Positions 4,104-33,446 of a stretch of 33,446 nt of DNA are shown piece after piece. The notes below the pieces were generated by a model, which saw only the letters and a list, made by a program, of their open reading frames with translations, did not search any database and was not told the DNA's origin. The DNA lies in IMG/VR virus record IMGVR_UViG_3300006802_000058, positions 1 to 33,446 of that record. One strand, written 5' to 3'. The position numbers and the translations under genes were made by a program. The DNA is from a virus. Within the stretch, counting starts at the first letter, position 1; each line of letters begins with the position of its first letter.

Positions 4104-5863
4104 TGCCACATTACAGAATACAGCGTACACTCCCGAACGGCTGGAACATACGCCTCGAAATGCTGCCCTACGACACCAACCTCGGTGGCACTGTCACCAC
4201 ACTCGGTGATGTGTGCCTGCTGGAGCTTGGCGATCAGGTTGCGGAGTTTGACGGCCTTCCCTACGGCATGGTCAAACCGCAGACACTGCAGTTCAAACTG
4301 GCTTGGGATATGCTCCCCAGTGCAGTTCAGTACTACATAGAAACCTCCGTCGACGGGGATAAGTGCAATCTGTGGATGTTATTCTCAGATCGTGGCACTG
4401 GTGGCGCTACCTACTCTCTCGAGTTCACAGGCGTCGAGGATAACGTCGAAGCTGTAAACCTTGAGCCACTCGATGACGGAACCTATGCCTACAATGTCCA
4501 GCTTGTCGACATGCTGTTCCATGCAATGAAGACAAAGACAGGCTACTCTATATTCAACGGCAAGGAAGGCCTGACCAAACAGCCTAGCAGCAACGTGTTT
4601 CAAGTGCGCATGAAGAACGACCCTGCAAGGCAGCAGTTCCAGACTGCCATAGCAGACACTCGTGCAGACAGCTTCAGCGATATAGTCGGCCATATCAGAA
4701 CAGGCATGGCCACCCACATCAAGACAAACTACGCACGGACAGCATCAGCAGCCACTGACATCTTCGACTGGTCGCAGGTTGTCGACGATTTCCTGACGAC
4801 AGCCCTAGAGCTTTACAAGATCAGCAACCTGAATATCACCCCTCGCCAGATAGGCACTGCCGTAACATCGACGACAGCGTATCTTCTGACCAATGCCTAC
4901 GAGCCAAAGTATAACGGCAAGACAATAGGTGGCATCTACTCTATGGGTGACAACTTCGGATGGGGTCGTAAGGATGTCACCGTATACGACATCATGCGAG
5001 ACATCTGTGAGGCCTTCGGTATAAAGGCCAGCTACGAGTTTACCTTCCGCACGACATCCGGTGTCGACAGGATCACAGCTACGTGGTTTCCGAAGCGCAT
5101 CTGCGGCAGCCGTGACGATACGACGAACACCACAGACACGGCAGATGTGACGCTGTCGATTGAGAATGCGCTCGCGCTGCCGTCCATAGTCAAGCGTGGC
5201 GATAATATAGGCAAGGCTGAAGTTCGTTATGAGACCACAAACCAAGACGATCTCACAGAAGTTGTAAGGCTCAAGAAAGGTGCTCGTTCTTCACGGTCTA
5301 TGAACATTGAGCCTATCGTTCACAACGTGCCTGTAGTGCTGATGAAGGACTACCATAAGAACAGCGGACGCAGTGACGTGCTCAAGCAGACGAATCACAT
5401 CATGTATGTCGATACAACGAACGACCTTATCAAGGTGCACGAAACTACGAAGTATTACTACGGACCCAAGGCTAACCAATGGATAAAGGTATCTTCGACG
5501 GCATCAGAGGAGCCTGCAGCCTTCAAAGCAGACTTCTCAAATGAGCCGTTGTTTCAGGTACAGATGGCAGCCATGCAGACACAGACAAGCATGACGGCAG
5601 CCTTGTGCCTGCTGCACCTGCACGTATTCGCTGACGACAACAACGCCACTGCCGAGATGGAGTGGAACTATACAGCTTCGCAGTACGTCAGACCGCAGGG
5701 CCTTGCCGGTAGGCATAACCTTACGGATAACGTAGCTAATACCTTCACGGCCTTGAACTGGTCACAGGCACTGCCCACGTCTATAACGATGAACTGGTTT
5801 GAGGGCACGACGAAAGTCAAATACTACCTGCTCGCACAAACAACACAGAACGAGGTGAGCTGA
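4103..5863 (+). CDS. Tail tip / minor tail structural protein
   Basis: This 586-aa protein opens with an RIQRTLPNGWNIRLEMLPYD segment and is beta-rich with mixed alpha/beta throughout, as expected for a tail hub or tip component. No catalytic motif, transmembrane segment or signal peptide is visible. It sits second after the tape measure and is coupled at both ends (TAATG at 4103, ATG at 5863 overlapping its TGA). In siphoviruses this slot usually holds the tail-associated hub (Tal-like) protein, sometimes with a protease or lysozyme domain, but I see no such active site. Calling it the tip hub is inference from gene order. Confidence 0.55.
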   Translation: MPHYRIQRTLPNGWNIRLEMLPYDTNLGGTVTTLGDVCLLELGDQVAEFDGLPYGMVKPQTLQFKLAWDMLPSAVQYYIETSVDGDKCNLWMLFSDRGTGGATYSLEFTGVEDNVEAVNLEPLDDGTYAYNVQLVDMLFHAMKTKTGYSIFNGKEGLTKQPSSNVFQVRMKNDPARQQFQTAIADTRADSFSDIVGHIRTGMATHIKTNYARTASAATDIFDWSQVVDDFLTTALELYKISNLNITPRQIGTAVTSTTAYLLTNAYEPKYNGKTIGGIYSMGDNFGWGRKDVTVYDIMRDICEAFGIKASYEFTFRTTSGVDRITATWFPKRICGSRDDTTNTTDTADVTLSIENALALPSIVKRGDNIGKAEVRYETTNQDDLTEVVRLKKGARSSRSMNIEPIVHNVPVVLMKDYHKNSGRSDVLKQTNHIMYVDTTNDLIKVHETTKYYYGPKANQWIKVSSTASEEPAAFKADFSNEPLFQVQMAAMQTQTSMTAALCLLHLHVFADDNNATAEMEWNYTASQYVRPQGLAGRHNLTDNVANTFTALNWSQALPTSITMNWFEGTTKVKYYLLAQTTQNEVS

Positions 5864-10897: not shown

Positions 10898-11345
10898 TCT
10901 CTGGAGACTTGTTGAGAGTTTTGGTTTCATGACCGTCGAAGAATGCATCTCGATAAGACTGCACAACGGAACACGACGTGTCCTGTTGCAGCTCAGTATC
11001 GATGGAGAACGTCACCATCAGGAGGTGGCTGTGGCCAATCCTTTGACGATGTTGGCAGTGATTGACAAGTTCCGCCAGCAGCGGGACAGCCTGCGAGCCG
11101 ACCAGGTACGCCGTCACCTTGCTGAGGAACAGGCCAAGATCATGGAGAACTTCCTACAGAAGCAACGCGATGAGATCGCACGGCTGCATCGTGAGAAGCT
11201 GCAGAAGGAAACCGATCAGATTGAGAGAGCTGTAAAGTACGTTCGAGGTCCCATACAGGCAATCCTCAAGCGGTGCAAACCAGTCGTCGATCAGTTCAGT
11301 TATACGAACGTTTACGGCAAACCAGCCGAGGTCTCTTTTCACTAA
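10878..11345 (+). CDS. Coiled-coil protein, 155 aa (unknown function)
   Basis: It begins 20 bases inside the SSB-like gene with a strong AGGAGG site (GGAGG at 10867-10871), so its ribosome site is embedded in the SSB acidic-tail codons. Residues 1-65 look globular; residues 65-125 are a long charged coiled coil (LRADQVRRHLAEEQAKIMEN and on). The C-terminal part, ending YGKPAEVSFH, is less charged. Co-translation with SSB suggests a replication or recombination accessory role. No family recognised. Confidence 0.6.
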   Translation: MAHSPSDLWRLVESFGFMTVEECISIRLHNGTRRVLLQLSIDGERHHQEVAVANPLTMLAVIDKFRQQRDSLRADQVRRHLAEEQAKIMENFLQKQRDEIARLHREKLQKETDQIERAVKYVRGPIQAILKRCKPVVDQFSYTNVYGKPAEVSFH

Positions 11346-11494: not shown

Positions 11495-11710
11495 ATGAAC
11501 CTAAACCTCGACATTGCCCTTTGCATTGGTGGGCCTTGTCCAAAGAAAGAACAATGCGCCAGGTGGGTGGTGTATGATAGTATGCAGCGTGCAGAGCAGC
11601 GCGGTGAGATTGAGTTCAATCCGAGCGTGGTCATCACAACGCCACCATTTAACTACAATGATGAGTGTTATTTCTACATGCCGTCAGAGCTGCAGAAGGA
11701 ACAGTCATGA
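11495..11710 (+). CDS. Small cysteine-containing protein, 71 aa
   Basis: Starts at ATG 11495 after AGGA; the longer frame back to 11273 crosses the terminator. The N-terminal CIGGPCPKKEQCARW places three cysteines at spacing C-x4-C-x4-C, with a fourth further on (NDECYFYMP), suggesting a small zinc site. Its end overlaps the next start (ATGA). Function unknown. It is the first gene after the structured RNA region, so it may be controlled by read-through of the terminator. Confidence 0.6.
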   Translation: MNLNLDIALCIGGPCPKKEQCARWVVYDSMQRAEQRGEIEFNPSVVITTPPFNYNDECYFYMPSELQKEQS

Positions 11711-12103: not shown

Positions 12104-12601
12104 ATGATTTACGCAAAGCCAACCACATACAACGGCATTACTTTCCGTTCAAGATTAGAAGCAAGGTGGGCCGTATATTTTGATAGCATTGGTATCGAAT
12201 ATGAATACGAGATGGAAAGATTTGATTTTAAGGATGGTACGGATTATCTCCCTGATTTCTATCTACCACAAGTAGAAATGTGGGCAGAGGTTAAACCATC
12301 GGAGTTCGATGAGACTGCTGCAGATTTGGTAAATAAACTAGTGTGGCAAACCGAAAGTGAATGTTTAAAGTTAATTGGAAGCCCACAACCAAAATCTTAT
12401 GAATCAGTTTGTTATGATCCAATGCCATACAAAGAATTTTGTTCTCCTCACTTAGTACACCGATACTACATATTGACTAATTATTATTTGTTTGATGAAT
12501 TCAGATTTTATTCAACACCTGGGTATGATGATGAGGCAGAAAATTTTGATGATGTCGTCAAATCTGTAAATAAAGCAAAAAACGCCTTTAAATTTATCTA
12601 A
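12104..12601 (+). CDS. PD-(D/E)XK nuclease-like protein, AT-rich insert
   Basis: The 165-aa product has the signature FRSRLEARWAVYFD (E19), then YLPDFYLP (D51) and WAEVKP (E62, K64). This is the E...D...ExK arrangement of small PD-(D/E)XK nucleases of Vsr or homing-associated type found in phages. Metal-dependent DNA cleavage is inferred. The C-terminal 80 residues are aromatic and acidic with no motif. Codons are visibly more AT-rich than in neighbouring genes (many TTT, AAA, TAT, GAT), and it sits alone between two ACACGGAG leaders, which suggests a recently acquired gene. It could be a homing or interference nuclease or a replication nuclease. Confidence 0.7.
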   Translation: MIYAKPTTYNGITFRSRLEARWAVYFDSIGIEYEYEMERFDFKDGTDYLPDFYLPQVEMWAEVKPSEFDETAADLVNKLVWQTESECLKLIGSPQPKSYESVCYDPMPYKEFCSPHLVHRYYILTNYYLFDEFRFYSTPGYDDEAENFDDVVKSVNKAKNAFKFI

Positions 12602-12617
12602 CACGGAGAACCAAACC

Positions 12618-14756
12618 ATGCAAATAGTAAAACTCTGTATCAACAGAACGGTCGTAAACAAAGCCGCGACACGACAGGACTGGGTGGCACTCAGTGCTCA
12701 GTTGTCGCCTGTGGAGATGGTGACGGATGACATCATCAATCACCTAACAGTTCACGGCTATCCTATTTGCTGTGCTGATCTGCACGTCGATCAGAAGACA
12801 GGCTATGCCAAGCGTAACGGCGACGCTTTCAAATCAGCACAGATCGTGGGTGTGGATGTCGATAGTGGCAAGCGTAGCTTCGAAGAGATTGCAGACGATG
12901 CTTACTTCCGAAAGTACGCCTCTTTTGCATACACAACAGCCTCACACACGGCAGCTAATCCTCGTTATCGTGTTATGTTCATCACTGAGGAACCCATACG
13001 CAACGCTAAGGACTACAAAGCCATCACTACAGCCCTTGCCGAACGGTTCGAAGGTGACACCAACGCACGTGATGCTGTAAGAATATGGTTTGGGGCTAAG
13101 AACGCGCAAGTCCATGCCTGGGGGAATATCCTGACCATGGATCAGATAGCCGATATGATCGACGGCCATGAGGAAGCACGTGATCTTGAGATAGCCTTCA
13201 ACGCCTTCGGTGGCACAAAGCCGAATGTCGATCAGATCAGGGCTATGCTACGAGTAATACCTAAGCATCAAGATCACATCCAGTGGAAAAAGGTATGTGC
13301 TGCCGTTGCACATGCTCTTGGAGATGATAAGATGGCAGCACAAATCCTCGAGGAGTGGTCACCTTGTGCTGGTGGGCTTACTTATTCTGAGGTGCTTCGT
13401 AATAAGCTAACCAGAGTTACGACAGCCACCTTGTACTATTACGCCAAACTGCATGGCTACGAAGTACCTAAGGACATCATCCGTCTTGAGACGAAAGATC
13501 CCACCGAAATCCTCGATAAGGTCGAAAGCTACTTAGCCAGTGGTTATGAGTTCCGCAAGAACGTCATCACCAATAAAATCGAGCTCCGAGGCGAGGCTGA
13601 CGTCAAACATGAAGCCCTGACAGACTACTGGGTTCACTCGCAACTACGGAAGATGCGGAAGATAGGCATCAAGATCACGAAGGAACGCTTGAACGAGGTT
13701 TTGGATTCGGATTTTGTGCCTAAACACGACCCTATCAAGTCCTATTTCGAAGGTTTGCCAGAGTGGAAGGCTGGAGATCGCAATTTCATCCGTGATTATG
13801 TGCAACTTTTGCCACACGATGAAGATCTGGATGATGGGAAGCACAATTCAGCCGAAGTGCAGCACGCCATATTCGAAATGATTATTGAGAAGTGGCTTAT
13901 CGGTGCCGTTGCAGGCGCTCTCGATCACAAGCCGAACCACATTATGCTCATTCTGCAGGGGGGACAGGGTATTGGTAAGACCACATATCTACGTCACCTC
14001 TGCCCTGTAGAACTTCGGCAGGATTACTACCATGAAGGTAGTATATCAGACGACAAAGACGTCAAACTGATAATAGCACGCTCGTTCATGGTCGTAGATG
14101 ACGAACTCGAAAGCATGACCAAGAAACAGCATGAGTCCATCAAAGCCATCATAACATCTGACACCATGCGACTGCGATCGCCATACGATAAGTATGAGAC
14201 CACATACGCCAGACGCTGCTCCTTTGCTGGATCTGTCAATAGACGCACCTTCTTGAACGACGAGACGGGATCACGTCGCTTTCCTGTTATCCCAGTGGGT
14301 GGCAATATCGACATTACTGGGATTCGGCAGTTTGACATCGACGGTCTGTGGTCTCAGGTTGTGGCTTACTATCGAGAAGGCAAACGCTACTGGTTCGACG
14401 ATCGAGAGATCCAGAAGATCAACGACTGGAATAAGCACTTCGAGGTTCTGAGTCAGTATGACGACCTTGTGACTAAGTACGTCACCCATAAGCCTGCATC
14501 TCTGGGGGCACACGTGCCGTTCCTGACGACATCAGAGGTGGCCAGTCAATTAGCTAACCGTGTATATGACGAGGAGAAGGTCTCCCTCAACATCAACGAC
14601 AAGTTCATCTACGGGCTCGGAAGGGCCTTAGCCAAGGCAAACATACCCCGCGTGGCTAAAAAGACCACCACGGGCACGCGAAGGGGCTATAACGTCATTA
14701 TACAGGCAAAGAACACACAGCACAATCCATTTACACCTCATGAGGAGGAGTTCTGA
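12618..14756 (+). CDS. Replicative primase-helicase (PrimPol-like N-terminus, VapE/D5-like helicase)
   Basis: This 712-aa protein is the main replication enzyme. The N-terminal third has archaeo-eukaryotic-primase-like motifs: GVDVDSG (D80, D82), a TASHTA with H110, and a PRYRVMF strand near 115-121. The C-terminal half is an SF3/VapE-type helicase: Walker A GGQGIGKTT at 448-456, Walker B FMVVDDE at 490-496, and an arginine-finger region SVNRRTFLNDETGSRRFPVI at 539-558. Such proteins prime and unwind phage or plasmid DNA. It is followed immediately by the repeat cluster at 14803-15094, a natural place for its origin. The helicase call is firm; the primase activity is inferred from motif order. 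Confidence 0.88.
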   Translation: MQIVKLCINRTVVNKAATRQDWVALSAQLSPVEMVTDDIINHLTVHGYPICCADLHVDQKTGYAKRNGDAFKSAQIVGVDVDSGKRSFEEIADDAYFRKYASFAYTTASHTAANPRYRVMFITEEPIRNAKDYKAITTALAERFEGDTNARDAVRIWFGAKNAQVHAWGNILTMDQIADMIDGHEEARDLEIAFNAFGGTKPNVDQIRAMLRVIPKHQDHIQWKKVCAAVAHALGDDKMAAQILEEWSPCAGGLTYSEVLRNKLTRVTTATLYYYAKLHGYEVPKDIIRLETKDPTEILDKVESYLASGYEFRKNVITNKIELRGEADVKHEALTDYWVHSQLRKMRKIGIKITKERLNEVLDSDFVPKHDPIKSYFEGLPEWKAGDRNFIRDYVQLLPHDEDLDDGKHNSAEVQHAIFEMIIEKWLIGAVAGALDHKPNHIMLILQGGQGIGKTTYLRHLCPVELRQDYYHEGSISDDKDVKLIIARSFMVVDDELESMTKKQHESIKAIITSDTMRLRSPYDKYETTYARRCSFAGSVNRRTFLNDETGSRRFPVIPVGGNIDITGIRQFDIDGLWSQVVAYYREGKRYWFDDREIQKINDWNKHFEVLSQYDDLVTKYVTHKPASLGAHVPFLTTSEVASQLANRVYDEEKVSLNINDKFIYGLGRALAKANIPRVAKKTTTGTRRGYNVIIQAKNTQHNPFTPHEEEF

Positions 14757-15427
14757 TGCTATTCACACGTGAAGAACTGGTCGAGATGGGACTTTTGCAG
14801 GAGGTTGCCAGTCCTAGGTTGTCAGGTTGCAACGTTGTTGCCAGTTCAAAATTGCAAGTGGCAACCGACTTATCTCTTTATATTATATATACTTACTTCT
14901 CTAGGTTGCTAGGTTGTAAGATAATATATAATCTAGTGGAAATAAATGTAAAAGGTAAATGTGAAACTGCAATTTTACCATGCAACCCTGACAACCTGAC
15001 CCCCTCGGAAGTGCTGTTAAGTATTTGGGAGAAATACGACTTAGCGAGATTCTGCTCGGTTGCCACGGTTTCGGCAACCTTGCAACCTGACAACGTAGAA
15101 ATAGCCGTTCAAGCCACAAAGAACAGCAACCTGTACGAACTTATACGGATGGACTGGGAGTTCTATAAACGCTTCGGTCACACTCCAGGCGATGCCTGGG
15201 ATGGTGTGCTACCTGACGACGCCCCACCTATCCCACAATTTGAGACCACGGAAGCTAGGATAATACCAACACAGGAAGTGCTGGAATCCGCTGTAGTCGA
15301 ACGCCAAAGAGTCAGGGCAGGGAAGACCATGCTGTCCCTGATGTATGAGAGCAACGTGCACGACTACACGTGGTTCGAAGGACACGATGGACAATGGCAT
15401 TGTTTTAACCATAGGGGGCTGGTATGA
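14756..15427 (+). CDS. Hypothetical protein, 223 aa, spanning the iteron cluster
   Basis: The ATG overlaps the helicase stop and has a strong GAGGAGGAG site, so translation is likely. The first 120 codons run through the GGTTGC repeats and AT-rich tract and read as low-complexity, poorly conserved-looking sequence (LSLYIIYTYFSRLLG). The last 100 residues look more ordinary, with YELIRMDWEFYKRFGHTPGD and a final HDGQWHCFNHRGLV. It may be an origin-overlapping replication accessory protein, or an older gene into which the origin repeats expanded. No family recognised. It overlaps the VRR-NUC gene start (ATGA). Confidence 0.5.
   Translation: MLFTREELVEMGLLQEVASPRLSGCNVVASSKLQVATDLSLYIIYTYFSRLLGCKIIYNLVEINVKGKCETAILPCNPDNLTPSEVLLSIWEKYDLARFCSVATVSATLQPDNVEIAVQATKNSNLYELIRMDWEFYKRFGHTPGDAWDGVLPDDAPPIPQFETTEARIIPTQEVLESAVVERQRVRAGKTMLSLMYESNVHDYTWFEGHDGQWHCFNHRGLV
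14803..15094. repeat. GGTTGC iteron cluster with AT-rich tract: candidate replication origin
   Basis: GGTTGC occurs at 14803, 14825, 14904 and 15058, and its complement GCAACC at 14861, 14982, 15074 and 15082, with near copies (GGTTGT/ACAACC or GTTGCC) at 14817, 14837, 14912 and 14991. Outer copies form a 15-bp perfect inverted repeat: GTTGTCAGGTTGCAA at 14818-14832 and its complement at 15080-15094. Between them lie AT-rich stretches, 14876-14891 and 14918-14934, consistent with a DNA-unwinding element. About 0.14 copies of a 6-mer on both strands would be expected in 280 bp. Position beside the primase-helicase supports an origin role, which is inferred. Confidence 0.65.
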
Positions 15428-15864
15428 GTGAAGAAAGGTACTTAGACGATCTCGACTGGGATGCTAAGGAACACGAGATGTTGGATAAGATAAGAGCCGA
15501 GAAGGCTGCTAAGTTGGCAAAACGCAAGGCTGGCAAGATTCCCGAGCGTGAAGTACAGAAGGCCATAGCATCACAACTCGAGATGCTAGGCTACATGGTC
15601 ATAAGAGTGAATAGCAGCGTGCAGAACCTTGAACACGGCACGAGGCTGGCATCATACCGCGTGGTCAATATAAACGCGACCAGCGGCCATGCTGACCTTG
15701 CTGTCTATCGTGATGGCAGGGCGTGGATGTTGGAAGTCAAGACAGCGACAGGTCGCACCTCACCAAGCCAGCATAAGTTTAGTGACTGCTGCCTGCGTTA
15801 TGGTGTCCCTTACGCTGTGGTGAGGTCGGTAGGTGAAGCCGTCGAATTTGTGAGAGATAACTAA
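15424..15864 (+). CDS. VRR-NUC domain nuclease
   Basis: After a basic, helical N-terminus, the 146-aa protein shows the VRR-NUC form of the PD-(D/E)XK fold: EREVQKAIASQLEMLGY (E43), GHADLAVY (D91), WMLEVKTATG (E104, K106) and SQHKF with Q116, followed by GVPYAVVRSVGEAVEF. Stand-alone VRR-NUC proteins in phages are thought to resolve or cleave branched DNA such as Holliday junctions, usually as dimers. That would clear replication intermediates before packaging, in keeping with the replication neighbours. Coupled to the preceding gene by ATGA. Confidence 0.88.
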   Translation: MSEERYLDDLDWDAKEHEMLDKIRAEKAAKLAKRKAGKIPEREVQKAIASQLEMLGYMVIRVNSSVQNLEHGTRLASYRVVNINATSGHADLAVYRDGRAWMLEVKTATGRTSPSQHKFSDCCLRYGVPYAVVRSVGEAVEFVRDN

Positions 15865-15877
15865 CAAAGGGGAAAGT

Positions 15878-16177
15878 ATGTTATACGACCTTATACTAGC
15901 CGATGCCTGCAGTCTTCTCGGAGTTACTCCCGAAGAGGTATATGCCAACAACAGGAAAGCAGGGGCAGTGCGTGCTCGTTCGATCACATGGTATGTGCTG
16001 AGTAAGCACTACGGATGGAGTCTTACAACGATAGCACAGCACTCACGTAAACACCACAGCACTGTCTTGCATGGCATCCGTTCTATCGAGGATGGGATCT
16101 TGATGTACACGGACATCAGGTCAGTGGTCAGTCAGTTGCGTGGTGTGAACTATGCCCAGCTAGTGCATGGCCTGTGA
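15878..16177 (+). CDS. DnaA domain IV-like DNA-binding protein, 99 aa
   Basis: The start has a strong AAAGGGGAAAG site. The 99-aa protein aligns by eye with the C-terminal DNA-binding domain of DnaA: VRARSITWYVLSKHYGWSL matches the R-x-I-A-M-Y-L helix before the basic loop, and RKHHSTVLHGIRSIED matches the signature (x-R-D-H-S-T-V-x-x-A-x-x-x-I). The AAA+ ATPase part is absent. A free domain IV could bind DnaA boxes to recruit, compete with or block host DnaA. A perfect DnaA box (TGTGGATAA on this strand) starts three bases after the stop codon. The first 30 residues have no counterpart I recognise. Confidence 0.75.
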   Translation: MLYDLILADACSLLGVTPEEVYANNRKAGAVRARSITWYVLSKHYGWSLTTIAQHSRKHHSTVLHGIRSIEDGILMYTDIRSVVSQLRGVNYAQLVHGL

Positions 16178-16179
16178 AT

Positions 16180-16188
16180 TGTGGATAA
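16180..16188 (+). promoter_or_regulatory. DnaA box, intergenic
   Basis: TGTGGATAA is the exact complement of the consensus DnaA box TTATCCACA. It lies in the 42-base gap between the DnaA-domain protein and the small terminase gene and sits in an AATTGT/ACAATT inverted repeat (16177-16199). It may be an operator for the DnaA-like protein, or part of replication control. Confidence 0.6.
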
Positions 16189-16219
16189 GTAAACAATTGT
16201 CAAGGATATCTTTACAACT

Positions 16220-16600
16220 GTGAATCTTACACCATCACAAGAGGCAGAACTAAAACGTCGCGCCCGTGCTATGCTAGGCTGGACAGCTCTGTCCAGGTGG
16301 TGCTCTGTTCTTCTCGGTCGTGACGTGCCAGTGTCTGAACTAAAGTCCGACTATGGTCTTATGATTGAGAACGAACGTAACGACGTAAGGTTCAACCTAG
16401 CACAGACACAGATCGAGAAGGCGCTATCAGGGGACAACACGATGCTGATCTGGTTAGGCAAGCAACACCTTGCACAGACGGACAAGGCAGCCACGGAAGT
16501 GTCAGGCAAGACCGATATACGGATCGTGCTGGCTCCAACACATGAAGAACCAAAGCAGATCGAGGACGCAGAGATTATAGCCATCGGGCCTAAACAATGA
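16220..16600 (+). CDS. Terminase small subunit-like protein
   Basis: A GTG start at 16220 gives 126 aa. The N-terminal 55 residues are helical and basic, as for a DNA-recognition domain (AELKRRARAMLGWTALSRWC). The C-terminal part has DNTMLIWLGKQHLAQTDKA, a segment frequent in phage small terminases, and then GKTDIRIVLAP. The protein would recognise packaging sites and hand DNA to the large subunit, whose gene starts within its stop codon (ATGA). The ribosome site is weak (AAGGA well upstream), and the adjacent DnaA box might influence expression. Assignment rests on the segment pattern and position. Confidence 0.75.
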   Translation: MNLTPSQEAELKRRARAMLGWTALSRWCSVLLGRDVPVSELKSDYGLMIENERNDVRFNLAQTQIEKALSGDNTMLIWLGKQHLAQTDKAATEVSGKTDIRIVLAPTHEEPKQIEDAEIIAIGPKQ

Positions 16601-17769: not shown

Positions 17770-18821
17770 GACACGGAAGTTTATTTTCAGGCATAGGTGG
17801 TTTCGACCTTGCTGCGGAGTGGATGGGATGGAGTAATGTATTCCATTGTGAATGGGCAGAATTCCCACGTAAGATATTGCACCATTACTGGCCGAATGCG
17901 ATAAGTTACCACGATGTTACACAAACGGAGTTCACAGCACATGCCGACCAAATCGACATCCTTACAGGCGGGTTCCCTTGTCAGCCGTACAGCGCGGCAG
18001 GCAAGCGCAAAGGGAAAGACGATGATCGTCACCTCTGGCCCCACATGCTACGAGCTATTCGAGAAATCAGACCTCGCTGCGTCGTGGGCGAAAATGTTTT
18101 CGGGCTTACTACTTGGAACGGGGGCGTGGTACTCGAAGAGGTGTCTGCTGAGCTGGAAGCTGAAGGTTACGCCGTACAACCGTTTATTATTCCAGCTGCA
18201 GCCGTCGGGGCTCCCCACAGAAGAGACAGGATCTGGATTGTTGCGTACTCCGTCAGCACAGGAACCAGGCATCAAGAACACCCGTCTTGTAACCAAGACT
18301 GGGGAACCTGCGGAAATAGGGAAAAGAGCTTACGACAAACACACGGGACGCCTAGCGCAAGTGGGGCTAACGCAACAAGTGCAAATGATGCGTTTGCTCC
18401 CTACTCCGAAAGCCTCGGATTTGGAAAGGGGCAACAGGAAGCTGGACGAGAACGGGCTGAACGTCAACAGCAAGGGAGTCAGGTACGGTGCAGCTCTGCC
18501 ACAACTAGCCAAGAGTGGATTGCTACCGACACCGACATGCATGGATGCAACGAATGCAACGGCAACGATGAAGTCTACACAGGTCAAGGAAGGCAGCATG
18601 CACAGCGTGACGCTAAGCAGGCAGATAAGCAGGACTTCTGGTACAACTTCCCAACTCAACCCCCTGTTTGTGGCGGAGATGATGGGATTCCCACCGAACT
18701 GGACGGTATTACCATTCCAAAGTGGCGAAGAGAAAGCATAAAGGGCTACGGGAACGCAATCGTTCCACAGGTAGCATTTCAAATTTTCCAAGCAATAGAA
18801 CAATATGAGCTTACTAACTAG
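17766..18821 (+). CDS. DNA (cytosine-5) methyltransferase
   Basis: This 351-aa enzyme transfers a methyl group from S-adenosylmethionine to cytosine C5. Motif I is LFSGIGGFD (6-14), motif IV GGFPCQPYSAAGK with catalytic C72, motif VI GENV (108-111), motif VIII GAPHRRDRIWIVA (148-160), and motifs IX-X end in GYGNAIVPQVA near 327-337. The target-recognition region (about 160-300) has repeated A-Y/D-S/T-x...G units (VAYSVSTG, APYSESLG, ATDTDMHG). It probably protects phage DNA from host restriction. No partner restriction enzyme is visible. A second ORF (18022-18741) lies entirely inside it in another frame. It overlaps terL (ATGA) and the portal gene start. Confidence 0.95.
   Translation: MRHGSLFSGIGGFDLAAEWMGWSNVFHCEWAEFPRKILHHYWPNAISYHDVTQTEFTAHADQIDILTGGFPCQPYSAAGKRKGKDDDRHLWPHMLRAIREIRPRCVVGENVFGLTTWNGGVVLEEVSAELEAEGYAVQPFIIPAAAVGAPHRRDRIWIVAYSVSTGTRHQEHPSCNQDWGTCGNREKSLRQTHGTPSASGANATSANDAFAPYSESLGFGKGQQEAGRERAERQQQGSQVRCSSATTSQEWIATDTDMHGCNECNGNDEVYTGQGRQHAQRDAKQADKQDFWYNFPTQPPVCGGDDGIPTELDGITIPKWRRESIKGYGNAIVPQVAFQIFQAIEQYELTN
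18022..18741 (+). CDS. Out-of-frame ORF nested in the methyltransferase gene (probable dual coding)
   Basis: A 239-codon frame runs from ATG 18022, six bases after AGGGAAAGACG, to TAA 18741, wholly inside the C5 methyltransferase gene in a different frame. The product is not shadow-like: it has CYELFEKSDLAASWAKMFSG, then WYSKRCLLSWKLK and NRLLFQLQPS. Three spaced units follow, LLRTPSAQ (73), LLPTPKASD (125) and LLPTPTCMD (167). The end is LNPLFVAEMMGFPPNWT. I recall very similar database proteins next to phage methyltransferases. Each LLxTP unit is encoded by the same DNA as an A-Y/D-S/T unit in the methyltransferase. An in-frame extension to 17914 lacks a ribosome site. Function unknown; possibly a partner in target recognition. 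Confidence 0.6.
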   Translation: MIVTSGPTCYELFEKSDLAASWAKMFSGLLLGTGAWYSKRCLLSWKLKVTPYNRLLFQLQPSGLPTEETGSGLLRTPSAQEPGIKNTRLVTKTGEPAEIGKRAYDKHTGRLAQVGLTQQVQMMRLLPTPKASDLERGNRKLDENGLNVNSKGVRYGAALPQLAKSGLLPTPTCMDATNATATMKSTQVKEGSMHSVTLSRQISRTSGTTSQLNPLFVAEMMGFPPNWTVLPFQSGEEKA

Positions 18822-21432
18822 AATAAAACAGTATATCTCACCATCGGGCGAGGTTGCACAGAACGACCTTCCTATGCCGCTCGAGGAGGTATGGACAAAG
18901 CACAGCTTCACACCAATAGTCAACTGGTCTGGAGCTTACAAGATGTGGAAGGCTAATCCTGTAGCACAGGCCTGCACTATCACGTACTCACTCATGATGC
19001 CCGAGGCACAGCTCGGTGTGGTCACTCCATCAGGTTACAGCTATGACGACCCTATCGTCACCATGCTCACACGTAACCAGTGGCGAGTGACTATGTCAGA
19101 GATCATGACCATCCTGTGCATCGGTGGCAATGCCTACGGCTACAAGCTGCGCAATGCCTCGGGTGCTGTGATAGGTATCAGGTGGTATTCAGATAAGCAT
19201 TTCGCGCCTGTGAATGATGGATGGGGTGATGTCGATTATTATCACTACTACAACGGTGCTGTAACCTACTCCGTACCGAAGGAAGACGTCGTGCACATCG
19301 TGGGCTTCTGGTACGACCCCGAGAAGCCACTTGGTGGCGGCTCGCCTGTCGAGCTTGCTGCGCAGTCTATTGAGGGCTACAACGAAGCCAGTGCCACGGT
19401 GTTCAACATCCACAAGAACGACGCCATGCCCAAGACCATCGTGGTCTACGATGAGGAGCTGACACCAGAGCAGGTAAGCCTTGCCGAGCGTTCGTTCAAG
19501 CGCAAATATGGTGGAGACCGTCGCGGTTCCGTTGGTATCATGTGGGGCGTGAAGGACGTCAAGCGCCTAGCCCTCGACTGGAACGAGCTCGGTCTATCTG
19601 ACACGTTCGGTCAGTACGAGACCCGTATCTGCGGTGCTTACAAGGTGCACCCTATTATCGCAGGGACTCATATGGGTCTGTCACAGAGTACCTACAGCAA
19701 TTTCGAGCAGGCCTCTAAAGACTACACAAACATGGTGCGTGTTCCATTCTGGAATATGCTCGCTGACCAGATCAATGCACAGCTCGCCATCCCTGACTAT
19801 GGTGTCGAGATCGGTTTCGACCTGTCCACAGTTCAGGCACTTGCTGGTGATGCTATTGCGACCGAGGCCGTGTCGACTCAAGATGCAAATGTGAACGGTG
19901 ACAACTCCAGCGACGGAGGCGCTGTGCCTGTTGAGGCGCGTGGCTTTCGTGGTATCTCAACAAAAATCAGGAGTGGAGAGGAAGCCGTAATCGTAGACAT
20001 CGACGATACACTGCTTACGAGCACAGGCAACCCAAAGCAGAACGTCATCGACTACGTCAATGCCAAGCACGCTGAGTACATGATACACATCGTGACCGGT
20101 CGCATGATTGACGACCGTGACCGCACTGTACGAGAGCTCGAGGATGCTGGCGTCAAATACGACGAGCTGCACCTTAACGACACAACAGCGCCCACGATAG
20201 TCTGGAAAGAATACAAAGCCAAGAAAATACAGGAGATGCATCCTGTAGATTTGGCTATTGACAATGACGAAGAGACCCGTGCCATGTACCGCAGCCTTGG
20301 TATTGATACGCTGAATCCATCAGACATACCAGAGATCGATAGCAAGCAATATGAAGGCATAGACTTTCTACCACCCAAGGGCGTCCGTGATGAGGCAGCC
20401 AAGGGCCTCGAGTGGCGTCGTGAGTATAACAGAGGCGGCACGGCTGTAGGTGTTGCCAGAGCTCGAGACCTCAGCAATGGACGTGCTATCTCGCCAGATA
20501 CGGCGAGGCGCATGAACAGTTACTTTGCACGGCACGAGGTCGACAAGCAGGGCGAAGGGTGGTCACCAGGTCAGGAGGGATTTCCTTCTGCTGGTCGCAT
20601 TGCATGGGCTCTGTGGGGTGGTGATGCTGGTCAGCGCTGGAGTGCCAAGCTAGTCGAGCAGATGAATGCTGAAGACGAGCAGAAGGCGCTGTTCAAGAGC
20701 GACGTGAAGTCATGGCTGCAACATCCAGACTCGCATGTTTATAGCAAGCAGTACGACGAGGCACTGAAGCCTTACGATGACCGCATAGCAAAATCATGGT
20801 CGATGGTAGCGATGGAGCTCGCCACCTACCTACGTGATACCAAATCGGCATGGGCTGTAGAAACAAAAGCCGAGGACTTCAGCGAGGACTTTTGGACTGA
20901 GAAGTTCCTGCGGGAAACCGAGACGGACAGGGAGGAGCTTGTCGAGCTGGTCATCAAGTTAGCCCAGGAGGAAGTGGACGCAGAGCCTGGAGACTTTGCC
21001 AAAGCTCGTGAGGCTGGAATCATTGAGTCATCTAACAAGATATCCGACAGCGTCCCAACACTCCGTGCGGACGTGCAAAAGGTTGTTCTCGAGAACCCTG
21101 GTATATCAGATGAGGAACTGAGCAAACTGCTATTCGACAAGGTCAAGGGCATCAGTCAGGCCCGAGCCAACATGATCGCACGCACGACGGTAACAGCTAC
21201 AACAGGTGCAACACAAAAATCGGTCTGGGATGAATTGGGTGGAATCCGCAGGTCATGGGCAGCCTTGGCAGGGGCACGGGCTGCGCACGCTGCAGCACAT
21301 GACAGTTTAGAGGACGACAACGGGCTATTCACAGTAGGCGGTGAACAGACACCATACCCTGCAGGCGATGGCCTCAGCGCTGCAAACTCCGTCAACTGCC
21401 GATGTTTCGCACGTGCTCGCAGGGCCGTGTGA
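18805..21432 (+). CDS. Portal protein fused to HAD phosphatase, GGTAVGVARAR module and MuF-like domain
   Basis: This 875-aa protein is about twice normal portal length. Residues 1-350 are an HK97-type portal (YKMWKANPVAQACTITYS, then LCIGGNAYGYKLR, and GLSQSTYSNFEQA near 291). Residues 394-505 are a complete HAD phosphatase: DIDDT 398-402, TGR 431-433, a lysine-rich motif III near 464-474 and DNDEET 486-491. Residues 528-615 carry the phage module RREYNRGGTAVGVARARDL...ARRMNSYFARHE...GRIAWALWGGDAG. Residues 765-875 are MuF-like (QARANMIARTTVTATTGATQ...NSVNCRCFAR). The portal ring would display 12 copies of each domain at the capsid vertex. The frame is continuous with no weak stop. The start overlaps the methyltransferase end by 17 bases. 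Confidence 0.85.
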   Translation: MSLLTRIKQYISPSGEVAQNDLPMPLEEVWTKHSFTPIVNWSGAYKMWKANPVAQACTITYSLMMPEAQLGVVTPSGYSYDDPIVTMLTRNQWRVTMSEIMTILCIGGNAYGYKLRNASGAVIGIRWYSDKHFAPVNDGWGDVDYYHYYNGAVTYSVPKEDVVHIVGFWYDPEKPLGGGSPVELAAQSIEGYNEASATVFNIHKNDAMPKTIVVYDEELTPEQVSLAERSFKRKYGGDRRGSVGIMWGVKDVKRLALDWNELGLSDTFGQYETRICGAYKVHPIIAGTHMGLSQSTYSNFEQASKDYTNMVRVPFWNMLADQINAQLAIPDYGVEIGFDLSTVQALAGDAIATEAVSTQDANVNGDNSSDGGAVPVEARGFRGISTKIRSGEEAVIVDIDDTLLTSTGNPKQNVIDYVNAKHAEYMIHIVTGRMIDDRDRTVRELEDAGVKYDELHLNDTTAPTIVWKEYKAKKIQEMHPVDLAIDNDEETRAMYRSLGIDTLNPSDIPEIDSKQYEGIDFLPPKGVRDEAAKGLEWRREYNRGGTAVGVARARDLSNGRAISPDTARRMNSYFARHEVDKQGEGWSPGQEGFPSAGRIAWALWGGDAGQRWSAKLVEQMNAEDEQKALFKSDVKSWLQHPDSHVYSKQYDEALKPYDDRIAKSWSMVAMELATYLRDTKSAWAVETKAEDFSEDFWTEKFLRETETDREELVELVIKLAQEEVDAEPGDFAKAREAGIIESSNKISDSVPTLRADVQKVVLENPGISDEELSKLLFDKVKGISQARANMIARTTVTATTGATQKSVWDELGGIRRSWAALAGARAAHAAAHDSLEDDNGLFTVGGEQTPYPAGDGLSAANSVNCRCFARARRAV

Positions 21433-21470: not shown

Positions 21471-21482
21471 GCCCCTGCAAAT

Positions 21483-21491
21483 TGTGGATAA
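21483..21491 (+). promoter_or_regulatory. DnaA box, intergenic
   Basis: A second exact TGTGGATAA lies between the portal and protease genes, in the same orientation as the box at 16180 and sharing flanking AT before it (ATTGTGGATAA). A third exact copy, at 27381-27389, is inside the holin-candidate gene. Confidence 0.5.
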
Positions 21492-25667: not shown

Positions 25668-26785
25668 TGGCAGACAAAAGACCGATAACAACACCTAGCG
25701 CACTTGCAGAGCTACCGAATAGCGATAGCTTAATTGCAGGCGCATCGGCTGTATTGAGTGAGCAAAGCACTAGCCCTGCAACGCCTGCTTCCGGCTATGG
25801 TATTGTGTATGCCAAAACAGATGGAAAGCTATACTTCAAAAACGATGCCGGGACAGAAACGGATTTGACAGCTACAGGCGGTGGAGGTACTAATCCAGTT
25901 ATAAATGAATACACAGCAAACGCCACTTGGACAAAACCAACGGCCGCGAATTTTTGGGGCGTGTTGGTGTTCTGCGTCGGAGCAGGCGGCGGCGGTGGAA
26001 GTGGAAGGGTGGACGCCGCAAGTACCGCTCGCTATGGCGGCGGTGGCGGTGGTGGAGGTTCTTATGCGTGCAGAATAATTAGGGCGGCAACACTAACATC
26101 GGCAACATACTCTATAACGGTCGGAAGTGGTGGGGCTGGCGGTGCGGCTAATGCTACAAATACGACAAATGGCAATAATGGCGCTCTGGGCGGCACAACA
26201 ACCTTCGGAAGTTTAGTTAGCGCACATCGCGGAACTAATGGACTCGCTGGCAGTGCGGCGAACGGTGTCGGAGGCAACGGCGGCTCAATAGATAGCTGCA
26301 CACCTCGTTATAGTCCGTACGCCGCAAATGGTGGCAGCGGTGGCTTTAGTCAAATCACTGTGACTTCCAATTCGGGCGGGACAGGGTTGCTACTTTCCGG
26401 CGGTGCGGGAGGTGGTGGCGGCGGTGGTATCTCAGTAGGGAACCAAACACGCAACGGTGGGGCCGGCGGGCAATTACGTGATATGGCTGTCCAAGTAAAT
26501 GGACCCGCAGGGGGTACGACACTAAGCCCAGACGGCGGGTCTGGAACTAACGACATTGCAACGAATCTACTATTCGATATTGACAATTCGACAACCAACG
26601 GCATGGGCACGGGCGGGGCTGGTGGCGCTGGTGGCACTACTAGCCAAGATGGCGGCTTAGGTGGCAATGGTGGCAAGGGCGCTGGTGGCGGTGGTGGTGG
26701 CGCTGCATATAATGGGTTTACTGCGCGAGCAGGTGGCAATGGTGGCGACGGCCTTTGTTTTGTTGTAGAGTATTACGGAGCGTGA
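25667..26785 (+). CDS. Glycine-rich tail adhesin
   Basis: Residues 1-70 are the fibre attachment module duplicated in the upstream 68-aa gene. A strand-rich part follows (NEYTANATWTKPTAANFWGVLVFC), then about 240 residues with at least ten glycine runs such as GAGGGGGSG, GGGGGGGS, GGAGGGGGGGIS and GKGAGGGGGGAA separated by variable loops. This is the pattern of polyglycine-sandwich adhesins such as T-even phage gp38 (for example phage S16), where packed PGII helices carry variable receptor-contact loops. It ends in a beta strand LCFVVEYYGA. It likely determines host range. The DNA codes these runs with mixed Gly codons, so this is not simple triplet slippage. Confidence 0.8.
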   Translation: MADKRPITTPSALAELPNSDSLIAGASAVLSEQSTSPATPASGYGIVYAKTDGKLYFKNDAGTETDLTATGGGGTNPVINEYTANATWTKPTAANFWGVLVFCVGAGGGGGSGRVDAASTARYGGGGGGGGSYACRIIRAATLTSATYSITVGSGGAGGAANATNTTNGNNGALGGTTTFGSLVSAHRGTNGLAGSAANGVGGNGGSIDSCTPRYSPYAANGGSGGFSQITVTSNSGGTGLLLSGGAGGGGGGGISVGNQTRNGGAGGQLRDMAVQVNGPAGGTTLSPDGGSGTNDIATNLLFDIDNSTTNGMGTGGAGGAGGTTSQDGGLGGNGGKGAGGGGGGAAYNGFTARAGGNGGDGLCFVVEYYGA

Positions 26786-27269: not shown

Positions 27270-27621
27270 CGAGCCACTTATCACCAGAGTCGAGCTGCGG
27301 TATAAGATAGAGAGGCCGCACGAGTTCGGCACGATGATACCAGTGAACAGGCTGCCCTTCAACATGGAACAGCCCGAGGTTGTGGATAATTCAAAAGCGA
27401 AGCCAAGTATATTCGGAATAGTTAGACACCTGTATTCAATCATTAAGGGTCTTCTCATGAAGGACTGGAAAACAACCGTTTCGGGAATCGTCGCTGCTGT
27501 TGCCTATGGCGTTCATGCCATCTGGGGCTTCTACATTCCTGAGATCGTTACAAACTCTGTTATTTCTTTGGCGCTATTCGCCATCGGCTATTTCTCTGCT
27601 GATAAGCCATCTAATAAGTAA
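27256..27621 (+). CDS. Holin candidate with N-terminal extension
   Basis: The frame opens at GTG 27256 and encodes 121 aa. Residues 68-121, from ATG 27457, look like a compact phage holin: MKDWKTTVSGIVAAVAYGVH, a second hydrophobic stretch (ITNSVISLALFAIGYF-like), and a charged end SADKPSNK. AAGGGT precedes the internal ATG by six bases, so a 54-aa product is likely. Two starts are common in holins, but a 67-residue extension is long. The upstream part (RPHEFGTMIPVNRLPFNMEQ) may be a separate soluble domain or a regulatory form. A DnaA box sequence lies at 27381-27389. Confidence 0.6.
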   Translation: MSNHDEPLITRVELRYKIERPHEFGTMIPVNRLPFNMEQPEVVDNSKAKPSIFGIVRHLYSIIKGLLMKDWKTTVSGIVAAVAYGVHAIWGFYIPEIVTNSVISLALFAIGYFSADKPSNK

Positions 27622-33082: not shown

Positions 33083-33388
33083 GTCACGCGCCTGACGGAG
33101 GTATACGAAGACTACGAAGTTCTCAAGGCCAAGCCTGTGGATGAGCAGGGCAACCCATACCCCAAGCGTATAACCGGCACAGACGTGCTGCCCTCGTGGG
33201 AGCATGACGTTCTCATGGCCATCGACGTTGCGAAGTTGTGGAAAATTACCCCAGATGAAGCCGTAGATTCCCTCAGTGCGTCTGAATTCATGCGTAGGGT
33301 TGCTATCGTTCGTGCGGCCTCGTGGGATCAGCCGACACCTAGTCAGATTTCTAAGAACAGACACGAACGCCGAATCGGGAAACGATAA
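33080..33388 (+). CDS. Tail assembly chaperone, C-terminal (gpT-like) extension, made by frameshift
   Basis: This frame, open from 33041, gives about 102 residues after the shift (EVTRLTEVYEDYEVLKAKPV) and ends RHERRIGKR. Fused to the 178-aa N-terminal part it makes about 280 aa. It has no good ribosome site of its own; the first plausible independent start is GTG 33137. ITPDEAVDSLSASEFMRRVA is a helix typical of gpT-like extensions that bind the tail tube protein. It ends at the TAATG overlap with the tape measure. Confidence 0.7.
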   Translation, partial: EVTRLTEVYEDYEVLKAKPVDEQGNPYPKRITGTDVLPSWEHDVLMAIDVAKLWKITPDEAVDSLSASEFMRRVAIVRAASWDQPTPSQISKNRHERRIGKR

Positions 33389-33446
33389 TGGCAGTTTTTA
33401 AGAATGAGTTGCAACTGGACACAAGCAGCTTTTCTTCATCGTTGAA
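33324..33446. repeat. Terminal direct repeat, right copy
   Basis: This is the exact second copy of 1-123, showing that the contig closes into a circle. Confidence 0.95.
33388..33446 (+). CDS. Tape measure protein, N-terminal fragment
   Basis: The first 19 codons of the tape measure gene, duplicated by the contig overlap and identical to 65-123. It continues at base 124 once the circle is closed. The overlap with the preceding stop (TAATG) is the same in both copies. Confidence 0.95.
   Translation, partial: MAVFKNELQLDTSSFSSSL

Follow-up and report, generated by a model that had tools for sequence, protein, structure and literature searches.

A predicted SaPI/PICI-type replication origin overlaid by an open reading frame behind the primase-helicase gene of a phage family

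Results

Genes and features of the locus

The window, by which we mean the whole stretch of 33,446 nucleotides analysed here (IMG/VR record IMGVR_UViG_3300006802_000058), has identical 123-base ends (1-123 and 33324-33446). Although classed as linear, the record therefore probably represents a whole genome, about 33.3 kb long and closed into a circle. The region of interest holds a primase-helicase gene, an ORF of 223 codons, a nuclease gene and the gene of a small DnaA-like protein:

12618-14756, plus strand: VapE/D5-type primase-helicase, 712 aa, PriRep-like; proposed initiator that would recognise the origin and load itself
14529-14702, plus strand: C-terminal winged helix, residues about 638-695; proposed iteron reader
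14649-14702, plus strand: wing, residues about 678-695, placed from the structure model
14754-14758, plus strand: TGATG overlap of primase-helicase stop and ORF ATG, read from the sequence
14756-15427, plus strand: 223-aa ORF without family match, running through the proposed origin
14803-15131, no strand: proposed replication origin (iterons and AT-rich block), predicted
14803-14866: left iteron set, at 14803 (+), 14817 (+, GGTTGT), 14825 (+) and 14861 (-)
14866-14907: AT-rich segment I, candidate melting site (30-bp windows, AT at least 80%)
14904-14917, plus strand: central tandem iterons GGTTGC-TA-GGTTGT, the most conserved piece
14914-14954: AT-rich segment II, candidate melting site
14982-15131: right iteron set, at 14982 (-), 14991 (-, GGTTGT), 15058 (+), 15074 (-), 15082 (-) and 15126 (-)
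14818-14832 and 15080-15094: arms of a 15-bp inverted repeat, exact in the window; by-product of opposed iterons
15424-15864, plus strand: VRR-NUC-like nuclease gene, next after the 223-aa ORF (PHROG 93, E=1.2e-14)
15878-16177: gene of a 99-aa DnaA-domain-IV-like protein (Bac_DnaA_C, E=3.6e-14)

The primase-helicase belongs to the VapE/D5 family, its match to PF05272 (E=2.9e-43) scoring 148.3 bits against a curated cut-off of 25, and it also matches PHROG helicase/primase families. The VRR-NUC-like gene lies just below the family cut-off of PF08774 (E=1.7e-4). No family match was found for the 223-aa ORF in profile searches of PHROG and Pfam. An AGGAGGA at 14743-14749 stands ahead of the TGATG overlap.

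Several further features were seen along the genome. Perfect DnaA boxes (TTGTGGATAA) occur in the window at 16179-16188, at 21482-21491 in the gap that follows the portal gene, and at 27380-27389. The first, 3 bp behind the 99-aa gene, is kept in all seven loci examined, window included, and each of the four L009-type loci has a box once more. Boxes of relatives lie at 4316 (L007), 4696 (L008) and 9266 and 13894 (L009). These boxes may be sites of the 99-aa protein, for example as a late-gene regulator. Positions 18805-21432 encode an 875-aa chain with PHROG matches to portal (100-357), polynucleotide-kinase-like (386-516) and head-morphogenesis (644-870) proteins, to judge by these matches an unusual fusion. 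The second densest hexamer cluster, GCCACC/CCACCA on the opposite strand of a Gly-rich protein gene at 25877-26785, is explained by glycine codons.

A dense iteron cluster behind the primase-helicase gene

Exact copies of GGTTGC/GCAACC are found eight times in 14803-15094 and nine times in 14803-15131, on both strands. The whole window contains 31 (17.9 expected), and GGTTGC is the densest strand-merged hexamer per 330 bp anywhere in it; across 150 dinucleotide-shuffled versions of the full sequence, the top cluster of any hexamer was 7 per 330 bp. Synonymous recoding of the ORF with the phage's codon usage never reached nine copies (0/20,000; mean 1.7, maximum 7), nor did shuffling of the ORF's own synonymous codons (0/20,000; maximum 8). 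Three GGTTGT variants (14817, 14912 and 14991) pair with neighbouring iterons at 8-9 bp spacing. The order is left set, AT-rich segment, central tandem pair, AT-rich segment, right set.

An earlier note on this DNA had described at least eight iterons on both strands directly after the primase-helicase gene, and these points are borne out: the gene ends at 14756 and the first iteron, 47 bp into the 223-aa ORF, lies at 14803. The AT-rich segments it mentioned were found as well, at 14866-14907 and 14914-14954. It had further bracketed the cluster with a 15-bp inverted repeat. This repeat is exact but not conserved, being a by-product of oppositely oriented iteron pairs, since the longest inverted repeats in the six relatives tested (10-15 bp) come from other iteron pairs at other places. 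Moreover, the GC-skew minimum that it expected near 14.8-15.1 kb does not lie there. The skew has no turn in that interval, with its minimum at 10,901 and the best slope change at 11,700.

Conservation of the iterons among relatives

The primase-helicase was found, at 91-100% identity, on 33 viral contigs. Two of these loci have the window's same protein (L004, L005) and three are cut by contig ends (L015, L028, L034); the remaining 28, together with the window, gave 18 distinct ORF versions. Iteron positions were counted in 17 of these, the partial L006 being excluded. The iterons at 14861, 14904 and 15058 are kept in 17/17, that at 14982 in 16/17 and that at 15082 in 15/17, and the remaining iterons are lost and regained nearby. 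The absence of the repeats from close relatives, which would have spoken against an origin, was thus not observed in any of the 17.

The 16-mer CTAGGTTGCTAGGTTG, which covers the central pair, was found on 37 viral stretches, of which 32 belong to the window's family. The core was considered as a mobile module and this was rejected, the five lone matches outside the family having only one or two GGTTGC within 300 bp. In the phage collection no match was found to the DNA of 12600-16600 or to the 223-aa protein, and searches of bacterial genomes with the ORF or the primase profile found no relatives.

An open reading frame runs through the cluster

The frame of the 223-aa ORF has no in-frame stop in any of the 18 distinct family sequences, the other two forward frames having 6-13 stops each, and indels in the displayed alignment are multiples of three. 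Both ends of the protein are conserved. The earlier note had regarded its N-terminal sequence as unconstrained, which holds from the iterons onward, where drift begins, but not for residues 1-14 (MLFTR[ED]ELVEMGLL), which are conserved.

Synonymous codons at conserved residues were compared in three divergent representatives. They are identical in 27 of 31 cases within 14801-14995, with control values of 191/592 in the primase gene and 17/52 in the 3' part of the ORF. The VRR gene was dropped as a third control because it gave only 17 comparable codons, with one representative probably read out of frame. The frozen codons indicate that the DNA of the origin block is constrained beyond the needs of the protein; the 3' part of the ORF, its codons drifting, appears constrained at the protein level. 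As the origin block would also serve as codons, the DNA between the two conserved protein ends is probably shaped by both iterons and open frame. These comparisons support the earlier proposal that an iteron origin lies within a coding frame, and what is new in this window is the apparent overprinting of the origin by a translated ORF.

The primase-helicase resembles SaPI PriRep1

A structure model of residues 400-712, built on 20 relatives, reached a pLDDT of 79.7; the full-length model (pLDDT 33) was set aside. The best match to the model is 7pds, SaPI PriRep1 with double-stranded DNA (Foldseek E=1.1e-15; VIA Z=22.0, rmsd 5.1, 266 aligned residues). The next best VIA scores, Z 13-14, were those of the ASFV primpol, NrS-1 and the SaPI5 primase-helicase (7ola, Z=13.0). 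In the model the match to 7pds spans model residues 15-295 and takes in a predicted winged helix, a helix-helix-hairpin formed by the final 60 or so ordered residues (helices 239-254 and 262-274, strands 279-284 and 287-296; add 399 for residue numbers in the protein).

Iterons behind vapE in other phages

We read 14 VapE phage loci, hand-picked from 60 records spread over a total of 489. A clear both-strand iteron block lies in the gap of about 290 bp behind the gene in five (lotta8-1, Staphylococcus phi2, OlisA3, Rosalind and IPP31), and a weak one is seen in Javan21 and P12024S. No clear block was found behind the gene in the other seven (SJC25, 1358, phi38:2, phi12:3, PPpW-3, Mica and a faecal contig). 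The Streptococcus phage OlisA3 has the GGTTGC core itself, in 11 copies and in an order like that of the window: left set, AT-rich DNA, central pair, AT-rich DNA, right pair. As in the window, a nuclease gene follows the gap in lotta8-1 and Rosalind (annotated VRR-NUC) and in phi2 (endonuclease).

The search was extended to IMG/VR loci around three of the VapE proteins read. Within 380 bp of the stop, some 7-mer reaches at least five copies in 76 of 82 distinct loci outside the window's family (34/35, 38/43 and 4/4 in the three sets). This count sets aside 46 duplicates (13, 12 and 21 in the P0002, P0005 and P0007 sets), three short stretches and loci whose match falls short of the protein end; locus L196 was counted under P0005. 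With six loci below five copies, and seven of the 14 hand-picked ones lacking a clear block, the arrangement is not universal. The window's own family reaches five copies in only 12/18 by this measure because the bases flanking its 6-bp core vary. A single stop-free stretch of at least 300 of 330 nt occurs in 18/18 sequences of the window's family versus 0/82 of the comparators, whose stop-free stretches span at most 237 of 330 nt. A literature search with most subscription journals outside its scope found nothing on iterons or replication origins of VapE phages.

Iterons covary with the helicase wing in Streptococcus phages

In Streptococcus VapE phages, differences in iteron sequence follow the wing, the final 20 or so residues of the helicase, and not the remainder. 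This pattern is a by-product of the analysis of the window. Across nine types, iteron distance is correlated with wing distance (r=0.66; 0.67 as a partial correlation controlling for the rest of the helicase; permutation p=0.0009); for the rest of the helicase itself the correlation is r=0.13. The nine are those of the ten rows of set A4 that have an iteron in the same register, which excludes L124; L129 lies outside A4. For instance, L116 and L119 share 98.6% identity over the rest of the protein but have different wings, and their iterons are CGGTTGCA and CGGTAACA.

Moreover, the pair of residues that follows W-x-K matches two adjacent iteron bases in 18 of 19 wing types, Gly or Ser going with G and Lys with A at one, Gln with T and Val, Thr or Pro with A at the other. 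The nineteenth, L124, has a different register and is not comparable. This pairing was read in a fixed register with only A/T and G/A allowed at the two bases; unrestricted 7-mer counts give the same wing/iteron pattern. The covariation could come in part from linked exchange of one DNA block, since the types are related and the end of the gene adjoins the iterons.

Two series of loci also stood out in the DNA up to 380 bp behind vapE. Among the Streptococcus prophages L083-L129, near-identical helicases differ in both iterons and C-terminal wings, which makes them a natural set in which to study origin specificity. Among the Staphylococcus phage loci L130-L200, a change of this kind is seen by eye, which pairs NKSGK...YGVQ with TGTTGCAT, QGK...YGLQ with GTTAC and EGK...YGKQ with GTCCC.

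When the C-terminal domain of the window protein was compared by hhalign with that of the Streptococcus set, the alignment stopped at residue 611 and covered the helicase part only. As the C-terminal domains do not align by profile, the pattern of wing residues and iteron bases is not transferable to the window protein. Its wing cannot be safely aligned to the Streptococcus wings, so that the proposed role of its winged helix as iteron reader is inferred by analogy with the Streptococcus covariation.

Discussion

A candidate origin and its possible initiators

On comparative sequence grounds, 14803-15131 is very probably the phage's replication origin, of the SaPI/PICI type with a self-loading helicase. 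The C-terminal winged helix of the primase-helicase would bind the GGTTGC iterons, and the left and right sets, partly opposed, would assemble helicase rings at either side. The AT-rich segments flanking the central tandem pair would then melt, and the helicase would load itself, unwind in both directions and prime. The block, presumably the sole origin, would double as codons of the 223-aa protein in this phage family.

A different protein might bind the iterons. The 99-aa DnaA-domain-IV-like protein, encoded 750 bp downstream and carrying the Bac_DnaA_C match, could act as initiator or as operator-binding regulator, with the primase-helicase following. The earlier note had named it as a possible binder. 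It is the weaker candidate, because 14803-15131 holds no TTATNCACA, and hence no cluster of such boxes as in an oriC-type origin, and the TTGTGGATAA boxes lie elsewhere, one directly behind the protein's own gene (in the window TTATNCACA is found only at 16180, 21483 and 27381). Moreover, in the L009 group the protein is down to 65% identity whereas the GGTTGC iterons are unchanged. We consider this reading improbable.

Somewhat less probable still is that the 223-aa protein is itself a lambda-O-like initiator binding iterons inside its own gene. The repeats do lie within its frame, as ori-lambda does in gene O according to the accessible part of PMC6022878, and both ends of the protein are conserved. 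However, it is without a family match and drops to 56-66% identity while the iterons stay unchanged, and none of the 82 other VapE loci, with the same kind of iterons, has an open frame through the block.

Short repeats on two strands also mark operator, partition and packaging sites, and the terminase gene starts only 1.5 kb downstream (16597). Against such a function in place of an origin, the position 3' of a VapE helicase gene, the AT-rich layout and the iteron/wing covariation in relatives all point to the helicase, and no partition protein was matched among the 16 window proteins scanned against PHROGs (many more ORFs exist); we rate it a shade lower again, as very unlikely. That the repeats merely reflect protein sequence (VAT, LLGC and CN codons) or chance can practically be dismissed: they do encode recurrent VAT, GC and CN residues of the 223-aa protein, but synonymous recoding refutes this reading, the GGTTGC core recurs in the non-coding DNA of OlisA3, and the synonymous sites are frozen.

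A replication origin served by the primase-helicase is thus the reading that we prefer. The broader proposition, a self-loading primase-helicase origin fully overprinted in a whole phage group together with a wing-to-iteron reading rule across VapE phages, seems to us evenly poised between holding and failing. If the rule is true, origin specificity of this helicase class could become predictable from sequence.

Comparison with known systems

The closest parallel is the rep-ori arrangement of SaPIs and PICIs. In the accessible part of PMC6092414, the origin of PICIs follows directly on the 3' side of rep; two sets of iterons surround its AT-rich region, and it drives the maintenance of a plasmid. 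The window likewise has, by its model, an upstream gene of the same fold, with iterons flanking AT-rich DNA directly 3' of it, and a Rep of the D5/VapE class with a predicted C-terminal DNA-binding domain. SaPI Rep recognises its origin by the C-terminal domain, as far as the available text of PMC7581432 describes it. Relative to the published PICI description the central iteron pair is additional, and unlike the SaPI/PICI origin the proposed one sits inside an ORF that appears to be translated. The window is also not a PICI satellite: such elements have no capsid or tail genes of their own, whereas it carries its own terminase, portal, major head/capsid and tape measure genes.

The vapE blocks of Streptococcus, Staphylococcus, Paenibacillus and Flavobacterium phages share position, both-strand iterons and AT-rich DNA with the window, and that of OlisA3 also GGTTGC, but they are non-coding. 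Ori-lambda, as portrayed in the accessible part of PMC6022878, likewise combines iterons and AT-rich DNA within a coding frame; it differs in having 18-bp iterons in the initiator's own gene, whereas the window has a 6-bp core in the gene after the proposed initiator. Finally, the Cch2 protein of SCCmec is a D5-family helicase whose isolated C-terminal domain binds its iteron DNA, repeats just downstream, in the portion of PMC7581432 available; unlike the window's cluster, these are three 5-nt intergenic iterons in a chromosomal cassette.
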